DNA of 64,000 bases from Clavelina lepadiformis (taxonomy: Eukaryota; Chordata; Ascidiacea; Aplousobranchia; Clavelinidae). The notes beneath the pieces are model-generated. The model saw only the letters and a list, made by a program, of their open reading frames with translations, was not told where the DNA came from and searched no databases. The stretch lies in assembly GCF_947623445.1 (NCBI RefSeq), contig NC_135240.1, positions 11,656,001 to 11,720,000 on the forward strand, written 5' to 3'. This document shows positions 5,704-45,600 of this stretch, piece by piece; position 1 is the first letter of the stretch; every line of letters begins with the position of its first letter. Position numbers and translations under genes: made by a program.

Positions 5704-7084
5704 GGTTCCAGGTCGATTCAACCCAAAAACGATTCAACCCCGGACGATTCAACCCAGGACGATTCAACCCAGGACGATTCAACCCGCGGACGATTCAACC
5801 CACGGACGATTCAACCCGCGGACGATTCAACCCGCGGACGATTCAACCCGCGGACGATTCAACCCACGGACGATTCAACCCGCGGACGATTCAACCCGCG
5901 GACGATTCAACCCAGGACGATTCAACCCACGGACGATTCAACCCAGGACGATTCAACCCACGGACCTTTCAACCCACGGACGATTCAACCCAGGACTTTT
6001 CAACCCAGGATGATTCAACCCACGGACCTTTCAACCCAAGGACGATTCAACCCAGGACTATTTCTGCGTATTAAGATTGACAACTTGCAGTTTCAAATGC
6101 AATGCCTTCACATCGTGACGTCACCAGACGCGCTGAAAGGCCTTCCCTCTCTTGGTGGCTTTGGTTCTAAGTAGGCCTCTAATTTGGGGCACTGGAATTG
6201 TTTGCGGTACAAGAAAAGAGAAAAACGGAAGAATAATATTACAAAATTACAAGTTTAATAGATTTTGACCTAAAAGACACAATTGACCGTATCTTGACCT
6301 AACGTAGGCCTAACATTTTGACTTTATATTGGCCTAATAACTTCTGTACTACACGTCGCACAAGACTGAAATTTGTTTTGTGATAGCATTCTGAACAGGT
6401 TAAAAAAAATTTACCATATAGACTTTTTTTGCGTGCAATCTTCATTCCAATCAACAAACAGTTGTTTCTAAGGTTTGACTTTTAATCGACGTGTAGGCTT
6501 TATTTTTCGCTAAGCAGGCCTACTAGTTACAACACGGTACATAAACTTGTTTTTATTTCAACACAAGATGTGTATTGGTATAGTGGTAAAAGCGGCATCC
6601 GTTAAATCCGGGGTTGAATCGTCCTGGGTTGAATCGTCCTGGGTTGAATCGTCCGTGGGTTGAATCGTCCGCGGGTTGAATAGTCCGGGGTTGAATCGTC
6701 CGGGGTTGAATCGTCCGAGGTTGAATCGTCCGTGGGTTGAATCGTCCGCGGGTTGAATAGTCCTGGGTTGAATCGTCCTGGGTTGAATCGTCCGTGGGTT
6801 GAATCGTCCATGAGTTGAATCGTCCGTGGGTTGAATCGTCCTGGGTTGAATCGTCCGTGGGTTGAATCGTCCGTGGGTTGAAAGGTCCGTGGGTTGAATC
6901 GTCCTCGGGTTGAATCGTCCGTGGGTTGAATCGTCCGCGGGTTGAATGGTCCGCGGGTTGAATCGTCCGCGGGTTGAATCGTCCGTGGGTTGAATCGTCC
7001 GGGGTTGAATCGTCCTGGGTTGAATCGTCCGTGGGTTGAATTGTCCGGGGTTGAATCGTCCGTGGGTTGAATCGTCCGACCACC
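5704..7084. mobile_element. Foldback MULE-like element with tandem-repeat arms (FB-B)
   Basis: A perfect 9-bp duplication CTCTTATCG flanks the element (5695-5703 and 7085-7093). The piggyBac MITE copy 2 has a single CTCTTTTCG there. The left arm (about 5704-6060) is a tandem array of a 15-16 bp unit, CGATTCAACCCACGGA with variants CGCGGA and CCAGGA. The right arm (about 6603-7084) is the same array inverted. Outer ends read GGTTCCAGGTCG (left) and GGTGGTCGGACG (right, complement). The 540-bp core (6061-6602) has no transposase, but about 6115-6420 is similar to the core of the foldback element at 22754-23441. The repeat phase stays open in several frames, which gives spurious RFNPRTIQP-type translations. 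Confidence 0.9.
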
Positions 7085-7325
7085 CTCTTATCGCGGTCAG
7101 TTGGTTTTCCGCACAGCGGGGTGCGGCGTAACAAAAAAAACTTCTGGAAATGTATCACTTGTAGAAATACTTAATTTACACTAAATGCACTTTCTTTAGA
7201 TTTACAATTATGATTTATACGGGAAGCCAGATGTTTTTGCTACTAACCTGTAAAAATCCGATCAGTTTACGACCTATAGTTTTCGAGTAAATAACGATTG
7301 AAAATTTGTGTGTAGTGTCGGCCGC

Positions 7326-8590
7326 GGTGGTCGGACGATTCAACCCACGGACGATTCAACCCCGGACGATTCAACCCACGGACGATTCAACCCAGGACGA
7401 TTCAACCCAGGACGATTCAACCCACGGACGGTTCAACCCGCGGACGATTCAACCCGCGGACGATTCAACCCACGGACCTTTCAACCCTTGGACGATTCAA
7501 CCCGCGGACGATACAACCCACGGACGATTCAACCCGCGGACGATTCAACCCCGGACTATTCAACCCGCGGACGATTCAACCCACGGACGATTCAACCCAC
7601 GGACGATTCAACCTAGGACGATTCAACCCACGGACCTTTCACGTACTATTGGCTTAGGTTATCACCAAGTTACTTTGTAGCCAATATTATGTAAGCTAAA
7701 TAAAGCTAATATATTGGCCTAAGCTAATATAAAGCTTTTTGTGTTTCCTTTTACCACTTCTTGTTAGCATTGGTTGTACATCAAAACACTTATTGTTTTC
7801 TGCTTTCCAGTAAAACCTTGAATATTGTTATTTTGCCCTATACAGTACTTTGCGTACATTTCTGTCTACGCCTGCTATTATTTTTTGTATTTACCCGTGT
7901 AGATCGGTTATTATATAAAATGTTCTCCTTTTAGCATTAAGTTAACATTTTTGAAGTTTTTGAAAAGACAAAATGCTTTCGACCCACGTACGTAAATGTG
8001 TGTATTTATATTTTTGCATGTACACAAATTACAGATATTTTTATAGACACCTGTTTATACATCGATTAATTAGAAAGAAAGTTGTTTTATTTACAGGCAA
8101 GCTTAAGAACATGAACCTGAACACAAACACAGCACGTATAAAACACAAAGCTGAAAAGGGTACTACAAACGGTAATTAATTAGCACATATGAGCGATTGC
8201 ACGCAGATACATCAATTTATCTGGCTCATTTGCATAAGTGCAAACCTTTGCCGAAAGTCTGTGAGCCAGGTGCGTGTATTTCCTTCGTGGTTGGTCCAAA
8301 TTAACAACAGCTGCGTTTTGAGCACCGAGCCGTGGGTTGAATCGTCCGTGGGTTGAATCGTCCGCGGGTTGAATCGTCCTGAGTTGAATCGTCCGCGGGT
8401 TGAAAGGTCCGTGGGTTGAATCGTCCGCGGGTTGAATCGTCCGCGGGTTGAATGGTCCGCGGGTTGAATCGTCCGCGGGTTGAATCGTCCGTGGGTTGAA
8501 TCGTCCTGGGTTGAATCGTCCTGGGTTGAATCGTCCGTGGGTTGAATCGTCCGGGGTTGAATCGTCCGTGGGTTGAATCGACCTGGAACC
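7326..8590. mobile_element. Foldback MULE-like element, second copy, inverted (FB-C)
   Basis: A perfect 9-bp duplication GTCGGCCGC flanks it (7317-7325 and 8591-8599); copy 2 of the host MITE has one GTCGGCCAC. The arms (about 7326-7641 and 8331-8590) use the same 15-16 bp unit as the element at 5704-7084. The terminal variants are swapped: GGTGGTCGG is now on the left and GGTTCCAGG on the right. The two elements therefore sit in opposite orientation, 241 bp apart, inside one old MITE. The core carries a MULE transposase tail (separate entry). Confidence 0.9.
8180..8330 (-). pseudogene. MULE transposase C-terminal fragment inside FB-C
   Basis: Read on the minus strand from the inner edge of the right arm, about 45-50 codons stay open to a TAA at 8180-8182. 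The sequence includes RRKYTHLAHRLSAKV and ends YLRAIAHMC. This is the typical extreme C-terminus of FLYWCH-associated MULE transposases (kYxxLxxRlxxxV...YLRaIAh). The tail of the MULE open frame at 25958-26644 has the same layout, ending YLRAVAYISHA. No catalytic residues are present. It is the best direct link between the tandem-arm foldback elements and Mutator-like transposons. Confidence 0.7.
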
Positions 8591-25000: not shown

Positions 25001-28000
25001 ATACAGTTTCAGCGATTTTTGATCACTTTTGGCTGGACACTTAGCTAAATTTTCGCGTTACTGTAGTTCTTAAAATTCTAAATCTTTCACACACCGCAAC
25101 AGTTACAGTACATCACAGTACGATTATAGACAAAATAAGAACGAACAATCAAGCTTGTGACATAACGGTTGCATGGTTTACTGCAGTTAGTTCGCCGCCC
25201 AGATTGAGGGTGTTCAGTAACAATGACAATAACATACTCACGCTCAAATTATTCGAAATCTCTCAGAAAAAAATGGCTTATAAAGTGGCGACTACTGTGC
25301 TTTGTATCTAAAGTTCTCACCTAATGTCTACTTTTACAACACGCTTAATAACAAACTACTACTACACGTTTCTGTTGAAAAAATAAACATCAAAAACCAC
25401 ACTACACAAAACTCCCACCACCGTTGTTAAATGGTCGTGTTTGTTAAAAGATTGCGACACATTGAAATAGAATAGAAGATATTGCAGACATGTTTAAGTG
25501 GTCAGTTATCACCCATTAACTGGAGTTCAACCGTAATATGTTGATCAAAAATGGTTCAGATTTTCTTTTATTTGGTAAAAGTACTGTTTTAATATCTTCA
25601 GCTGCAACAGGCCCTGAGGAGGCAGTTGTGGACGTAGTTTATATTACATAAAATTTATGCCTACTAACACAGACAAGAAGTTAACATGTCAGAAATAGAA
25701 GTATCGACCATGTTACTAAGGGTAAAATAGACAATATAATCTTTATTCAGTATCATCTTCAATGGTGTACCGACACTTAATCACGCGACACATAATCACG
25801 CGACATTTAATCACCGACACATAATCACTAGGACATTTAATCACGCGACACATAATCACTAGGACATTTAATCACGCGACATATAATCACTAGGACATTT
25901 AATCACGCGATTTCGATACGTAATCACGCGACATTTAATCACGCGACACATAATCACTTGGATGCGACTGCCAAATGCGTTTTGCTCGATTTTGAGACTG
26001 CCGCAGTAAGTGCTTTCCGCACAGCATTTCCTACAGCAAATGTTAGGAGTTGTTATTTTCACCTAACGCAAAGCGTCCTGCGCAAAGTGAATGAAATTGG
26101 TATGAAGTGTGACTACGAGTCTGATGACGAATTAAGAACAGCTGTTCGGTGTTTACCAGCCTTAGCCATGGTCCCTTCCTCTGACGTAGTCGAGTCATTT
26201 CTGATCTTAGCTGATAGCATGCCCGATCACGAGAAGATGCCTGAGCTGCTTTCGTATTTCGAACACACATATATCAGAGGCAGACGACGTCCGGGACGTG
26301 GTGAACATTACGGCTCAGCCATCTTTCCAATCGAAAGTTGGAATCATTACGAAGCCGGGGCAGGTTGCATTGCAAGAACCACAAATGCAGTCGAAGGTTG
26401 GCATTTTGGTCTCCAAGTGCTTTTTCAATGCCACCACCTGACAATGTGGACTTTCATACGGGGAATTGAAAAAGACATTCAAATGCAACGTGCAACGTTT
26501 CTGCAAGGAATTGCTGGTACTCAACCTTCTATTCCAATACGGTACAAGGCACTGAAACTGCGCGTGCAAAACACAGTTGACCGTTATCTGTCAAGCGAGA
26601 TTTTAGTCTATCTTCGTGCAGTTGCTTACATTTCCCATGCATAACATTGCTGTAAATTGTAAATGTAAAAAAATATTGTAAATGTGTGATTAAATGTCGC
26701 GTGATTAAATGTCCTAGTGATTATGTGTCGCGTGATTAAATGTCCTAGTGATTATGTGTCGCGTGATTAAATGTCGCGTGATTAAATGTCCTAGTGATTA
26801 TGTGTCGGTGATTAAGCGTCGCGTGATTAATTGTCGCGTGATTAAGTGTCACCAAACCATCTTCAATGTGTGATGAGAATAGACTTAAGTCAAATTTCAA
26901 AATAGGAGCTACTATGCATTCATAAAATCATGCAAGATATGAAATGCTGTATAGGTACTAGGTAATCATGTTTACCTGTATAATACCACAGTTTGTGTTG
27001 GCCCAGTATATCCAAGCAAATATTCCAAAATACTGCTAGGCCTAGTGTAACCAATTGTAACATCTACTACCCACTTCAGTTTTCCTGATGGGGCATTAAG
27101 ATCAGCAGCTGAAAATGTAATCCATTGAAAAATGTAAAGCTAAAATTGATATATACTCTGCTTGAGATGTCATTTACCATTTGTTTCCCCATTCCAATTG
27201 TTCAGGTTGTAGTCAACATCATGGTAACATACACCGAGTGTGTTTATAATAGTTTGTATTGCACCAATTCTTGGCAATGCGACATGTTGCAATATAGGAA
27301 AGCCATTCTTTTTGGCATATCTGCAATTCACGAGGTAAAGTTGTTCGGAAGACAAAGTTGTATGAAAAGACAGCTTGTGTTTTGTATATGTTAAAGTGAT
27401 AGAGTGTGTAAGGCTGAAATTGAAATCTGAGAAAGACATGTAAGACTTTTTCAGAAATATTTAATGTGAAATGTTTTAGAAATGCTTTTACTGAAAAAAA
27501 TCTCACCTTTGACTTCCACTTCGTCGTTTTCTCAGGAGTCCTCCTTCTGGGAACAAAAGAATCCACTTCCTTTTTCGTTCACAAAAGTTACTGATAATAT
27601 TTTTTTCCAATAAAGCTGGTTGCTCCAGCCTTGATTCTTCAGGGTTGAAATTTAAAATTTTTCCGAATCGGTTTGCATCAGGTGCCTCATATAAAGAAAA
27701 ACATACTTCAGTAACAGCACAAATAAATCTAACTAAAAGTTAGTCACTCAAAGTGAGTCACTGAAAGTGGTGATAAATAGGTGTTTTCAGGAAGTATTGT
27801 GTTTTGCCACTGTATGTTGAAAGTAGTGCAAGCTTTTTAAACTGATTTTGTGATGAAATTTTGGCTTGGATAAAACTGTTCAAAAAATACACGAATGAAT
27901 TATGCAAATTGATATCTATATGGGTGAAACAGTTTAAATTAAGATTAACAGTTATCCCATTTTTTCGGCAAAGTACGATGACACCAGAATGTGTCCCAAA

Positions 28001-36600: not shown

Positions 36601-39600
36601 TAAGATAACAATAATGAGGCACATTTCAATATATGTCCTTTGTTTGCAAATCTACACCAGTGTTTCCCAAACTGTGATAGTCGAGTGGTACTCAGAGACC
36701 TTTATTATAAAGGACCATAACACATACAGTTGGTAGTGTAAAACTTAGTTTTCATACAAAAGTGATTGCGTGCTAAGTTTTATATTAACGACTACATGTG
36801 TTTTGGTTGATGTTATACAGTAGATATGTTCTAACTTTTAAGCAATGATTTTTGGAATATTTTCGACGAATAGGCACAACACAAAGATTGTTACTACAGT
36901 CACGATAAGTAACATTCTTTACAAAGAGAAAGTTTTGGCTTTCATTAACTTCTAATGGTTAAGCTTTTTAACTTCTAACTTAACTTTTTTTAACTTCTAA
37001 TGGTTAAGCTTTGACATCATAAAACATCCCATCTTTTCTGGTTCAGTGCCAAAATAAAACGAGAGGATGAGGAAAAATGATGTCACATTTTCATGCTGTG
37101 CATAAATACTTTTATTTGGGGTTACCCCTATTTAGATGTAGATACTCAACAGATTGGCTGATGACAACAAAACAGTTATCTTTATAAGTTCAAAAAGCGG
37201 ACCGACACTTTTTCTTTGTGGTACCAATCATTACTGTTGTGACAAGTAACTAAAATTCAATGAGACAATTTTTTTGTTTTTTAAAAAAATTGAAAAGAAC
37301 ACAATGAGAATTCCAAATTTTCTTTGAACAAATGACAAAATAAAAAAGTTTTAATATGCAATAATGTAAAACTTGTTGCTGCATACACTATATAGACACC
37401 TATAATTAATTATGAAAAACTCATATGACTGCTGGATAAAAATAGCTCGCATGGTGGATGGTTTAAAAAAGAGTTTATGTCATTCAATACAACAGTTTGT
37501 GGACAGAACCTAGTGGACCAATGTGAGTAGAACACTTTTTATGGTTCAAAACATATGTAAAAACTTGACAAAATAATGGTTATTATTAAAAAACTAACTT
37601 ACTGTGCCTAGTATAATTCAAAGAATAAGTAGTAGAACTAAGGAAAGGAGGAATCGTTTTAGTTGTAGGCGTTATGCTTAACTCATTATCAATAATGTGA
37701 GCTAATTATAGCATCCTAAAAAGTTATATAACGCGGGGAGAATTGAAATGACTTTGTCATACCAAGTTGTTGCAATAATAACAACAAGTACAGAAGTGCA
37801 GTATTGATATTTCATTAAAAACTAACATGTTTCTGTTCTAATGCTAGTCCTTCCTCAGAAGATAACATTACTAAGCGCACAATATAAAATATACAAATTA
37901 CAAAGTGAATAGTCTTCCACGGGCATTGTAATAAGCTTGTACCAAACGTGGCACAGTATGATATTCTGCAGTTCCTCATTTTCGTATTATCCTATTGAAT
38001 GTCGTCCAGTTTTTTTATCGTTGCATTCATACCTCGACCTCGAAACTTTACACTGAGTAAATCTCAAAAATTGTATCACTACTTACAAAAACCTGATTGG
38101 GTAAAATTTCTTAATCTTATTGTATGTTGCAACCTGCAATGCTGTCTAATTACAAGTTACAACTAGGACGCCAGTATACAAAGGTTGGGAAACACTGTTT
38201 TATAATATATGCACAGCACAAGCAATTAGCAGACCACAATGTATTCTTACCCGAATAGCAAGGGGACTGGTGGAATAATCTACTGGCTGACAAAATAAAT
38301 TATATTCAGCTAAATAGCTTGCAACAAGGAACTGTAAAACAAACAGATATATTTGTAAGCATTATGGAACCCTTAATCCTTAAACTTTAAAAGGCAAATA
38401 ACTTATTACTGAGTTAATGTCTATAACAATGTTCTCTTAACTGCGAAAGATTTTGCTAATTGCAAAAATTTCTTTGTACCCAAAGTTTTTAATGCCAGTG
38501 AAGTAACAATAAAACTTAACGTGCATTATTTCTTGAAACAAATTGAGTCAGTCAATTCTTAGTGAAAACTTAGCAATAACATTAGTTTTAGACACCAAAC
38601 TTTAAATACATATAAACCATGCTACATATCAAAATCATACCTCATAGAACATGTATGCTGACAAAAATACCAAAGCAGTATTGTAACATAGTAGAATTCC
38701 ACGAAGTCGAAACGCAGGCACATTTTGCATCATACGCTTAGCATTAATGCAGACAACCAGATATACCAGCAAAATACATAGTGGTGGCCATGGACTGTGA
38801 ACAAGGAACCATCCATCAGTTCTGGGATCTACACAAATAGGTTCAAGAATTGTTTAATGTGTTCAGATTGTCATATTTTACCGTGCTGGCTCTTTCCAAG
38901 AAATGCTTCAAATTACTTTTGCTGTCAGCTGTGTAGCCTAGCGGTAAAGTAGCAAACCAACGCTCAATAGGTTGTCAGTTTTGTGCCCACTGAAAGCACA
39001 CAGTTGTGCAATAGGGGAAGTGATTATTTAATGACTTCGAACCCAGGTCATGAAAATTTGAAAAGACGCCACTATTCTAAGGTCACGTTCCATAGGAGCC
39101 AACTCACTTCCAATACGACCCACAACTAACAGGTCACATCATCTTCAGGCCACTATTGCAACCCACGATGCAAAGACAGGCGTCACTAAATGAAGCCTGG
39201 GTCGAGATTACAGCAACCATGGCTCGTATGAATCGAAGCCTGGGTCGAGATTGGAAGGGATCATGGCTCGTATAAATTGAAGCCCGGGTCGAGATTACAG
39301 AGGTCATGGGTTCTATAGATTGAAGCCTGGGTCGAGATTGGAAGGGGTCATGGCTCGTATAAATTGAAGCCTGGGTCGAGATTACAGAGGTCAATCAGGT
39401 CATGGGTTCTATAGATTGAAGCCTGGGTCGAGATTGGAAGAGGTCATGGCTCGTATAAATTGAAGCCTGGGTCAGGACTACAGAGGTCATGGTTTCTATA
39501 GATTGAAGCCTGGGTCGAGATTGGAAGGGTCATGGCTCGTATAAATTGAAGCCTGGGTCGACATTACAGAGGTCATGGGTTCTATAGATTGAGGCCTGGG

Positions 39601-42600
39601 TCGAGATTGGAAGGGTCATGGGTTCTATAGATTGAAGCCTGGGTCGAGATTGGAAGGGTCATGGGTTCTATAGATTGAAGCCTGGGTCGATGTTACAGAG
39701 GTCATGGGTGCTGTAAAATGAAGCCTGCGTCGATATAAGGAAAAGGTGAATTCGAATAGAATTGAGATCTGGAGTCTGAAGTTAAATATGTTGAATAAGA
39801 AGGCAGGAGGGTTAGTCGAGCTCTTTTGCTGTTTTTTTTTAGGACTGGCAGACTGCGGACGCTGATTAATGTTAAAGAAATTACTATGTCAGTGTGTAGG
39901 CCTATTGAAATACTTTAAGCCATGGGTTTTGATTGCATTGAAAGTTAGGCTAGGCCTGTATGAGGCGAAATTTATTATTAGGCAATCTTAAACGAATATT
40001 ATAGGTTGTAGCCTATAGTAGGCTACCGGTACATAGGCCTACTGGTATGTGGTTCCAACGTCACATACTAACATAATGTTTCCAAATGATTTGGATAAAA
40101 TAGAATATGAGTAATAGATTTGCATTTTTGTGTGAATATAAATCAAATCTGCATATGGTAACTTTTATCAAATCCCTTGTCGAGCATCGTGTAATAACTT
40201 GTTATTTTGTTAAAAGGAAAAAATAAATCTGTTTTCTTTTATACTTTGTAATAGTGCAATGAAGTAAAGTTTATCGCAACAATTTAATCGTCTTACGATT
40301 AACCATACAATACAAAAACTCAGGATTTCCTACTTTTTTGCAAAATACAGGATTTAAACAAACCTGTTTGCAAAATTAAGAAAAATTATAATGATCTTTG
40401 CATACTAGTCGTATTTGCAGATTGGCACATCCCTCGTACTTTCTGCTTGCAATGGTACTGTTCAGCGTTTGTTATGTACATGTAATACTTTGTTTTGCTT
40501 TCCAAAGACACAATACTTTGTTACCTTTTGATGAAGCCATGATGGCTTACTTTCTGAAAGAAAAACGCATACCTACCCATGACATGTGCACGCTGAAATA
40601 TTCTGCTGATCTAATAATTTTTCTTCATGGTATAGGTTGTATGTAAACAGGCTAAGTGTAGGTATATCTCTTTATCTTTAAGTCATTGATGTGGCACTAG
40701 AAGCTCTATGTATTGAGGTATGCTTTGGTATTTTCATTTATATAATTGTTTATACTTCACATTAGGAAATATTCCCTTTCACAGCTTACAAATAAGGTAA
40801 AATTGAGCAAAAACAATATACTTTTAACTTGATTTTAGCAGCACAACTAACATGTTGTTTTTGACTTAGTGTAGTGAATGTGCTGTACTGTAAAACATAT
40901 ATCAGGTGTTCTATCTCCATACAGTTGTTATTGGTTTACTTCGGAATTGTATGTATTTCACGTTTGAATTCACATATGGTTTGAAAATTTCTTTCAAAGA
41001 ATGAGGATTGGAATACTGTTTCATCACAATATGGTACTTTATGGTTTCACAAAGGAAGATTTACCCGCAGAATAACGACTGGTTATGTTCAAGCCATAAT
41101 TTGCTCCTTTTTACTTTGACATGTTCTTTATGAAGTTTGTTTTTAGGTAACTGCACGTTTCATGAAACCAGTTGTAACTATGATAAATACTGGAGTACAC
41201 TGGGTGTTTTAGGTGAGATTCAAATTCAATGTATTTAGATTATTTGTAACACTAGCTATCTGCCTGACGACTATCACCATGCAGCTACCATTAGATTATT
41301 TGCAGGCAATTGATGTTGCTAACGCAGAGGTGTTCATTTATGATCCACTTGGGAGGGAAAAGATCATTGCTCCACTGATTACAACTAATTTCACGTAAGC
41401 TGAAGCTGTGATTAAAACATTGGCTTGTAATCTGTCATGGAATGGTACATGAAATTTGTCCAGTGATTGACAAAAAAGTTTTACTACCATTAAGAAATAC
41501 GCAGGTGGTATACCGTGGATATACAGGATTTTAATGTAGCCAACAGTGAGTCATTAAGGACCTTTGTGCTTTCACAAATAAATTTCAATGTTTGTAATAT
41601 TATTACAAGTATTTATACTGTACTGATATATTTCAATTGTAAATAGATTCTTCCAGAAATTTCATAACATGAAATTGCATCAACCGAATGCATATAACGA
41701 AGACACAAAAGTGGTGATATACAGCCACTATGTACAAAAAGATTCCCACAGTTGTGGGCCCCTCTCTATCATGGTAAGTGATCAATCATACAAAATTAAC
41801 CCTCTTACTCATATCTTGTTACAATTGACTATAAGTTATTGCAGTAAGTAATGAATATGCTTCCTGCTCAATGCTGTGTTTAGGATAGGGTTGCATAGGT
41901 TACTGCACTGCTTATCAGTCTTAACTTATGATATTCGGACTTAATTTACCTGCCTAATTAATGATCTGACTCTGTGGTTGCGTGCGGTTAGAATTCTCTA
42001 ACCTCTTACTAGCCGAAAGCTCTTACGATACTACAGATACAGTTTATCAGAAACGGTCCTTTATTGTAGGAACTGTACAGGTTCCGATTGTTATACAAGA
42101 TCACAAACTTAGTATTCACCATTTAAAACAAGTCTAACGAATTACAATTAACACGACTAACGTCATACGTTCGTACGATTCTGTATCTTTGTCTGGACGC
42201 TTACTCGCGTAGAAGTTCGAGTTTATAAAGCGGAGCGATGTGAGCGGAAGTATTCAACACAAAATACACGAACATTTCAGAATGCGCGAACGATAAAATC
42301 ACGCGTTGGGCAATGGGGATTATTTTCAGTTAAAACTCGGATGTTATGAAATCACCTGGTAACGTACTAAACGGCGCTTTCACATGAAGTTATTTAGAGA
42401 AAGTTTCCAAATATTAAGCGACAATTGCAGTTTCATCAATAAACAATATTTCAATAAATAACTGGCAAATACTTTCCCACGAATGATATAACGGTATTAA
42501 AAATGCCTCCCAGGCCACTACAGGGTATGTGAGTAATCTTTTCTTTAAATAAGTACCTTAGTACCCATTTATGTCTAAGTGCCAAAATGTTTTACAAATA

Positions 42601-45600
42601 CAGAAATGAATTATATAACATATTTATTTGATAATCACCTTAATGAAGATAAAATAAGTCACCATGAAAAGTGCATATGCTGTAGCCCAAGTCACAAGAT
42701 AGCATTTTTACACATTTCTCACTGCTATAGTTTTGATACAGTAATCGTTATTTCCAAACTAAAAGAGGCTTTGTAGGGCTTAGCCCCGTCCATGATTCCT
42801 TATCAATCGAGCTCTAGTTACTGAGCTAGCCTTTTTGCAAGTTCTAACATGTCACCTGATTTGTTTTTATAACAGGATCTAGTGTTTTAAATGCCTTGCC
42901 CAAGGACATTACTATACAATAATAGTGCCAGTAGGTATTGAACATGGGCAGCACTGTTGCTAGCACAGAGCTCTAACAATGCAGCCACTTGGTAGTTTGC
43001 CTTATAGGTATAATATTTGTTGTTCAATACAGTATGCAAGACAACAATTGCATAATAATTGTCAAAGAAGAGCATGGCTTTTATTAGTTGAGTGCTAATG
43101 TGCACCTTACAATTCAGAACAGATTTAGACTGTGGACATATGTGGGAGATTATACATTTTTGTGGATTATATGTGACAAAATATTGTAAACTTGAAATTG
43201 CCTATCCACTGAAAGCTACTTCTACGTTATGTTTATGTAGGCTGCCCAAAAATACATGAGAAATGAATTTTAAGAATTTAGAGAGACTTCCACAGATTGC
43301 AATGCAATACGCATTGCAATCGTAAATATGCTACTGAGACATTGTGGTAAGTCCATGCTAAATTTATTTGGGGTCCCATTAATTCAAAAACTTTAAATCT
43401 CATGAAAAATTATATTATTTCACTTCATGTATTGTTTTTAGATGAAGAGAACCTTGACGAATTTTGCGTTCTTTGTTCTGAAACAACATCACGGAGCACT
43501 GCATGGGTAAATCGTTTTCGTCTTAAATTGTTCGATGTAATGTCATAACATTAAGGCTTCTATTACAGCAATATAAAATTGTTTTGCTCATTTATCTTTC
43601 AGTATGCATGTGATCAATGCTGCCGATGGATCCATGAATCCTGCTTTGCTGAACCTGGAGAAAACCAACAGTTTCTTTGCAAACATTGCACAAATTAATT
43701 CATGTAATAAAATTGTTTCCAGTTCTTAACCTGTTTGTGGTACAAATATAAGTCAGGCAAGCATTCACTGTAAATGATTTATTAAATTGAAGCATATCAA
43801 GGAAGGTGTGGAAGAAAGTACTTTTAAATAATTTCTTCACTACAAAGACGTTCTTCTGTACATGTGTTTTCTTTAACTCATGCAGTCAGGAGACTTCCCA
43901 ATTGAACGTGGGTCACGTGAATGATTTCACAATCCTAGGAGTAACGTGAAATGGTCTGCATCAGAAATCCGAACATGCAGTAATAATGTACGGTCAAACC
44001 ACTCCATTTTTATGTCCTTCAATTGCTTACTAGGCAAATCACTATTTACCTGTAAAGTACAACTAAGACAATGTTGTAATTAACATGTGTGTACAATAAT
44101 TTTATCAAGTACTTGCATAATGTATTTGTGGTTTTGCATAACTCAACATTCCTGTGGAACTCAATTTAACTTTGTGTGTAATTTGTGGGGCTTAATTTCT
44201 GTAATATAGGTAATGTATGATAATTTACTGCACAACGCAAACTTAGTGATACAGAATTTAATTAAAAACATGATCTATTTCATTTCAAACCAGCCTTTTA
44301 GGCATGACCTCTTTATTGTCGATCAAACCTTTAGTAAAAAAAGCTGTGACCTTTCCAGTCGTACTAGGCTACATAGCCTAACCCATGACTTCTGTAATGT
44401 CGACCCAGGCTTCAATTTATACGAGCCATGACCCTTCCGATCTCGACCGAGGCTTCAATCTATAGAACCCATGACCTCTGTAATCTCGACCCAGGCTTCA
44501 ATTTATACGAGCCATGACCTCTTCCAATCTCGACCCAGGCTTCAATCTATAGAACCCATGACCTGATTGACCTCTGTAATCTCGACCCAGGCTTCAATCT
44601 ATAGAACCCATGACCTGATTGACCTCTGTAATCTCGACCCAGGCTTCAATTTATACGAGCCATGACCCCTTCCAATCTCGACCCAGGCTTCAATCTATAG
44701 AACCCATGACCTGATTGACCTCTGTAATGTCGACCCAGGCTTCAATTTATACGAGCCATGACCCTTCCGATCTCGACCCAGGCTTCAATCTATAGAACCC
44801 ATGACCTCTGTAATCTCGACCCAGGCTTCAATTTATACGAGCCATGATCTCTTCCAATCTCGACCCAGGCTTCAATCTATAGAACCCATGACCTGATTGA
44901 CCTCTGTAATCTCGACCCAGGCTTCAATCTATAGAACCCATGACCTGATTGACCTCTGTAATCTCGACCCAGGCTTCAATTTATACGAGCCATGACCCCT
45001 TCCAATCTCGACCCAGGCTTCAATCTATAGAACCCATGACCTCTGTAATCTCGACCCAGGCTTCAATTTATACGAGCCATGACCTCTTCCAATCTCGACC
45101 CAGGCTTCAATCTATAGAACCCATGACCTCTATAATCTTGACCCAGGCTCCATTTTATACGAGCCATGACCTCTGTAATCTCGACCCAGGCTTCTGAATT
45201 TCAAGCCTGGCTTGCAAGTCATAAATGGATCACTTCCCCGCCTCCAGTTGTGTTTAACTTGGCAAGACGCTTAACGGCATAACTTTAGGTAAGCATTAAG
45301 ATTGGCTTCAATCAGCTTCCTGCACAGGCGCCCACCTAATTCAAATCTTAACAGCATGTAAAAAAAACCTAGTAAAGGTACCTAAGTCGAAGGTTTAAAA
45401 CGTGCTCAAAAATCAAGGTAATAATCACTGGTAAAAACTAGCACGATCACTAAACCTGCACATTGGATGCAATTTTCACGAAAAACGTTATTTGTGTCAA
45501 ACGTTGTTGCGATGACATGTAGCTTTGTTTACACACTGAATGCGATGGCCACAGGTCAATGCACTCACAAGCCTGCCATTTACATGCTTCTTTTTTTGCG

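Follow-up and report, generated by a model that had tools for sequence, protein, structure and literature searches.

Among plant Mutator-like elements (MULEs) the Kaonashi type carries a Ulp1 protease, and the target duplications of MULEs measure around 8-11 bp, usually 9 bp. The name Foldback is given to elements with long inverted arms of tandem repeats; it is a structural label only, silent on the transposase. Passages of PMC2836005 report Ulp1 domains in Ginger1 and Mutator elements and OTU domains in Ginger1 elements and Helitrons, and describe Ginger1-9_HM of Hydra, the transposase of which has Ulp1 and PHD among its C-terminal domains. For Zisupton, of the KDZ transposons (Kyakuja-Dileera-Zisupton), 8-bp target duplications are reported in part of PMC12730594. 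Here we describe an element of 6,236 bp in a 64,000-nucleotide stretch of the genome of the ascidian Clavelina lepadiformis (contig NC_135240.1, positions 11,656,001 to 11,720,000), referred to as the window, to which coordinates without a contig name apply. With high confidence, we consider it to be a non-autonomous copy, shortened by an internal deletion, of an ascidian DNA transposon with foldback arms; the copy lies antisense in intron 1 of an ELOVL gene. The complete element would encode one multi-exon transposase with C2H2 fingers, a SWIM-type motif, a CxC4 domain, a putative catalytic core, a Ulp1/SENP-type protease and a PHD-like finger.

The bounds of the element, 39009-45244, were set by the conserved terminal tips and by the 8-bp duplication CAGTTGTG found on both sides, and they correct the limits of 38935 and 45285 given in a preliminary description of the locus. 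The same description had a gene bracketed by inverted arrays of a dimeric repeat, and this holds: the arrays of the two arms, with periods of 43 and 86 bp, are inverted relative to each other, so that the long arms of tandem repeats that characterize Foldback elements are present. Minus-strand exons of the ELO family flank the element (PF01151 scores of 77.3 and 41.1 bits against a cut-off of 27), which places the element antisense in ELOVL intron 1, as had been proposed. The ends and arms are as follows:

39001..39008, left target-site duplication CAGTTGTG
39009..39186, + strand, left terminal tip, CAATA followed by GGGGAAGTGAT, common to other copies
39187..39733, + strand, left arm, 43-bp units repeated in tandem as an 86-bp dimer
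39734..40085, + strand, conserved stretch inside the left arm; in longer copies the first coding exons come after it
44380..45194, - strand, right arm, inverted array of the 43/86-bp units of the left arm
45195..45244, - strand, right terminal tip, GAGGC followed by GGGGAAGTGAT on the minus strand
45245..45252, right target-site duplication CAGTTGTG

In the genome searched (209 Mb, 95 contigs) the central 1.3 kb of the element matches at least 21 places, the window included (30 rows of matches); at three of the further places the match covers only 72-226 bases. The search for other copies bounded by the same arrays, which the preliminary description had suggested, was productive, as arrays flank the Ulp1 match on either side at 12 of the 20 loci examined (L009-L028). 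Copies end in CAATA-GGGGAAGTGAT on one side and in GAGGC-GGGGAAGTGAT on the other. The true tip was not seen in L017, L018, L024, L027 and L028, and a single end was read at L010, L021 and L022. At 15 loci, among them the window, both ends were readable, and 12 of these have a perfect 8-bp duplication, 11 of them independent. L013 (C1, 2.42 Mb) and L012 (C1, 4.01 Mb) share an identical target duplication in opposite orientation, and therefore represent a segmental duplication and not two insertions; L017 and L018 resemble a duplicated pair of this type. Two short derivatives of around 3 kb also have the element tips, one at C5:14836211-14839251 (L045/L046) with the perfect 8-bp duplication TCGGTTTG and one at C3:782877-785835 (L047/L036) with the perfect 8-bp duplication GTAAATAC, both duplications being read by eye from the flanks. 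The Ulp1 query found no match in either of them.

These data bear directly on the possibility that the locus is a host gene, i.e. a nested single-copy Ulp1/PHD gene situated between satellite arrays in ELOVL intron 1. The catalytic motifs have been kept and the ratios of non-synonymous to synonymous substitution (dN/dS) are below 1, as would suit such a gene, though the ratio reaches 0.78 between the window and L022. Against it stand at least 20 further places with matching arms and tips and their own target duplications, as well as the stop and the frameshift in the window copy. Considering that copies elsewhere share the arms and have their own duplications, a nested single-copy host gene is disfavoured, and we regard it as highly improbable. 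The earlier view that a transposon carries the Ulp1 domain and the PHD-like finger is upheld by the same copies.

The window copy has lost its front. The gap that separates the Ulp1 match from the conserved segment of the left arm is 0.4 kb in the window, 1.5 kb in L009, 1.9 kb in L014, 2.5 kb in L012 and 4.2 kb in L019, while L015 and L016 have almost no sequence at this position. Relative to L010 the deletion amounts to ~2.5 kb: positions 1444-1568 of the element align to one stretch of L010 and positions 1552-2814 to another, ~2.5 kb away, and the junction lies in the 17-bp overlap at 40560-40576. What is left of the region consists of two parts:

40086..40507, + strand, remnant of the internal region, without the C2H2-finger and SWIM-type exons of longer copies
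40508..40576, + strand, start of the CxC4-side exon, exon 1 of the preliminary description, truncated by the deletion

Exon 1 as drawn before thus spans the deletion joint and is a chimera. The longer copies carry C2H2-finger exons, a SWIM-type frame and a cysteine-rich segment. The SWIM-type frame, 257 residues with a CxC...CxH motif, is open at four places that are 99-100% identical, and is partial or has stops at two further places. The CxC4 domain (PF18717, annotated as 'associated with KDZ transposases', cut-off 26.9) scored above cut-off in eight of the nine aligned proteins, P0001 (34.6 bits) and P0002 (36.1 bits) among them; the corresponding part was lost from the window copy. P0002, a gene model that appears to correspond to the copy at 16.86 Mb on C6, has the conserved core with the motifs GGIVHFRCPHG, ESARDY, SDISSQ and DRFH. 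The combination of CxC4 and core is common to relatives in Ciona, Styela and Clavelina, CxC4 and Peptidase_C48 occur within one protein in P0005 of Clavelina and P0006 of Styela, and P0008 joins the core and Peptidase_C48 in one protein. Given the domain order in the longer copies and these relatives, the Ulp1/finger gene of the window is best read as what remains at the 3' end of a gene for a multidomain transposase. The proposal that Ulp1 is a cargo gene finds no support, as it forms the tail of a transposase-like protein in P0005 and P0006.

The C48 catalytic motifs HW, YDPLG and DSHSCG are located between the arrays on the plus strand, where they had been reported together with the Cys/His finger. 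The splice pattern of the Ulp1 part was taken from the annotated relatives P0010 and P0011, and the alignment comprised the window and 10 of the 20 other places (L009-L012, L014-L017, L022 and L023). In this way the following exons were obtained:

40682..40717, + strand, remnant of Ulp1 exon B, 12 residues, from tblastn of P0010/P0011
41000..41082, + strand, remnant of Ulp1 exon C, frameshifted by 1 base and not followed by a GT donor
41147..41212, + strand, Ulp1 exon D with the catalytic His (HW) and an in-frame stop at 41210-41212
41306..41394, + strand, Ulp1 exon E, encoding YDPLG, the Asp motif
41505..41589, + strand, Ulp1 exon F, border by eye, skipped in gene model P0010
41657..41773, + strand, Ulp1 exon G, encoding KDSHSCGPL, the Cys motif

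Two joined queries, part-built from related copies, scored 26.8 and 27.0 bits with PF02902 (cut-off 20.7), and the annotated relative P0010 reached 36.0 bits; a Pfam search with the window exons alone, joined roughly as in the preliminary description, gave no Peptidase_C48 at E<=1. A profile of P0010, P0011, P0005, P0006 and P0008 matched yeast Ulp1 (1euv, 1.1e-12) and SENP5 (8.9e-13). The family thus has both PF02902 and the His-Asp-Cys set of C48, and the window keeps the motifs in a broken frame. The GT donor after exon C, absent in the window, is present in all nine other copies that reach this point. The stop after the catalytic His is common to the window and L022 and absent from the eight others that cover the site. 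The uninterrupted eight-exon gene described before is not confirmed, as its exon 1 is chimeric and the frameshift, the lost donor and the stop appear under P0010/P0011 splicing; its frame was open because another splice had been chosen that avoids 41210-41212. Judged by the splicing of related gene models, the Ulp1 gene of the window is broken by the deletion of its front, the frameshift, the loss of the donor and the in-frame stop. Most likely no protease can be made from this copy, and only its DNA ends could still act as a substrate. L010 and L011 are identical over exons C-G, and in these all five exons are open.

The finger between the arrays is of the C4HC3 kind, on the plus strand, and is divided over two exons:

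43442..43506, + strand, opening Cys pair of the PHD-like finger, exon borders set by eye
43603..43698, + strand, last exon, with C..C, H..C and C..C of the PHD-like finger and the stop

The C4HC3 spacing is present in the fingers of the window and of L010/L019, and the C-terminus of P0005 is a PHD-like finger as well. All scores with PF00628 were below the cut-off of 24 (window 22.4, L010/L019 20.3, P0005 15.6 bits).

The selective history of the Ulp1 part was assessed by a Nei-Gojobori count over ~130-146 codons, with exon borders from P0010/P0011 and by eye. Values were obtained in 12 of 13 comparisons and all were below 1. Between two subfamilies dN/dS was 0.30-0.37 (five comparisons, of which four are distinct since L010 equals L011 there), and within one subfamily 0.16-0.50 (three comparisons). 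The window gave 0.47 with L010 and 0.41 with L009, and L022 gave 0.53 with L010. This suggests past constraint on the Ulp1 part, followed by later decay. Considering that broken copies have different target duplications, they have presumably moved in trans.

To which family the transposon belongs was judged from its domains and duplications. A Mutator-like element (MULE/Kaonashi-type) with a captured Ulp1 cargo gene would account for a Ulp1 domain inside a DNA transposon, for the foldback arms and for the SWIM-type motif, which has a link to MULEs; the 8-bp duplications, at the limit of the MULE range, do not by themselves decide for or against this assignment, and the window has a MULE-like foldback at 25765-26858. 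In addition, Ulp1 domains are reported in Mutator elements, those of hydra and lancelet included, in part of PMC2836005. Nevertheless, the MULE domain PF10551 was found in none of the nine aligned proteins at E<=10, and in the relatives Ulp1 is in one protein with CxC4 and the core. We therefore consider a MULE improbable, and such an affiliation is not supported for this element. With Ginger1-9_HM the element shares a transposase-linked Ulp1 protease and a PHD-like finger, both C-terminal. From Ginger1, with its integrase core of the Gypsy type and its CCGG/CCGT duplications of 4 bp, the element differs by having a CxC4 domain and duplications of 8 bp that lack that sequence. Ginger1-9_HM, as described in part of PMC2836005, is a precedent from Hydra, and the statement that an animal transposon with Ulp1 and PHD would be unusual was for this reason only partly right.

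The likeness to KDZ includes the CxC4 domain, a multi-exon transposase gene, the 8-bp duplications and the order of the core motifs (DGN, C.H, DIA, H, E), which by eye agrees with that of the KDZ exons of the same genome. Unlike KDZ, the element has no detected PF18758 (the KDZ catalytic domain) and has a C-terminal Ulp1 domain with a PHD-like finger and long inverted tandem-array arms. PF18758 does find 31 matches above cut-off in the genome (e.g. C2:6471208 and C7:2628896), none of which falls within a listed copy of the element. Around 20 of these 31 rows are near-identical and short, suggestive of a second abundant family.

Several results weigh against the reading of the element as a copy of a KDZ-like multidomain transposon. 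No duplication was found at L011 and L026, and in L025 it matches in 7 of 8 bases. A six-frame genome search with CxC4 gave no match in this genome or in the controls, which may be explained by introns that split the domain, given that spliced proteins do pass the cut-off. PF18758 was found in none of the nine aligned proteins (E<=10, HMMER filters on), one of which, P0001, is without the core. When the core was compared by hhalign with KDZ exons from this genome, the probability was 0.2%; the KDZ side consisted of just two near-identical sequences, taken from the PF18758 matches, and 6 or more of 100 shuffles beat this score, the best at 24.1%. Two AlphaFold models were poor, with a mean predicted local distance difference test (pLDDT) of 47.6 (P0003-led) and 41.7 (P0010-led), and no fold was drawn from them. 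Finally, a different stop, located in exon F, is common to seven of the aligned copies. As these copies are dispersed, either a functional Ulp1 domain in cis is unneeded for spread or the exon is skipped, as in P0010.

On the whole, CxC4 and the 8-bp duplications point to KDZ but the domain search and the profile comparison are negative, and the transposon is therefore best described as KDZ-like and not as a member of KDZ. The negative results for the element, obtained with a model that does recover 31 matches from the genome, would suit a deeply diverged transposase superfamily that has only accessory domains (CxC4, SWIM-type, Ulp1, PHD) in common with KDZ and others. As the motif order is that of the KDZ exons by eye and the duplications are of the length given for Zisupton in part of PMC12730594, we hold such a superfamily to be possible though rather doubtful. 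Among the papers listed in the literature searches there was no description of this transposon family; one may be present in Iyer et al. 2014 or Boehne et al. 2012.

A mechanism for the KDZ-like transposon can be outlined. The full protein would act in trans, excise the element by cut-and-paste and insert it again with a stagger of 8 bp. Its predicted binding sites are the arrays and the GGGGAAGTGAT tips, and the putative core may adopt an RNase-H-like fold. The Ulp1 domain might strip the transposase, or the chromatin at the target, of SUMO or a related modifier, and the PHD-like finger could act as a chromatin reader. Tentatively, one may envisage a tunicate transposon lineage in which a de-SUMOylase and a PHD-like reader became fixed in the transposase itself; the core of this protein would escape the standard KDZ model, and the protein would read chromatin and remove SUMO from its own integration complex or the target.

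A few further observations concern the element and its surroundings. The element itself contains one insertion:

41892..42523, nested high-copy repeat of ~630 bp

Among 40 places scored out of 980 candidates, 27 others matched this repeat at 90-97% identity. In the Clavelina gene model P0012 a host DUF4615 protein is joined to 47 residues identical to the window element (41255-41395); the DUF4615 gene itself lies at 7.73 Mb of C3, where the searches reported no adjacent match to the element. The fusion could be a recent polymorphic insertion or an artefact of the model. The preliminary description spoke of abundant MULE-like foldbacks nearby, which can be substantiated in part: the foldback element at 25765-26858 has arms of 15/31-bp units and a piece of a MULE-like transposase, with a weak PF10551 score of 21.9 bits that remains below the cut-off of 27.6. 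It is flanked on both sides by the 10-bp duplication ATCTTCAATG (span 25755-26868). A 16-bp unit makes up four arrays at 5711-8583; their orientation alternates, so that inverted pairs result, and one or two more foldback elements may be present there.

For genome annotation the family carries a warning, as multi-exon relics of it have been predicted as ordinary genes (P0001, P0002, P0010 and P0011). More generally, unrelated DNA transposons have repeatedly been found to carry proteases of the ubiquitin/SUMO pathway, and the chordate transposon described here, of the CxC4 type with Ulp1 and a PHD-like finger, adds another, apparently independent instance. The family thereby offers an animal system in which the roles of Ulp1- and PHD-type domains in transposition may be tested.

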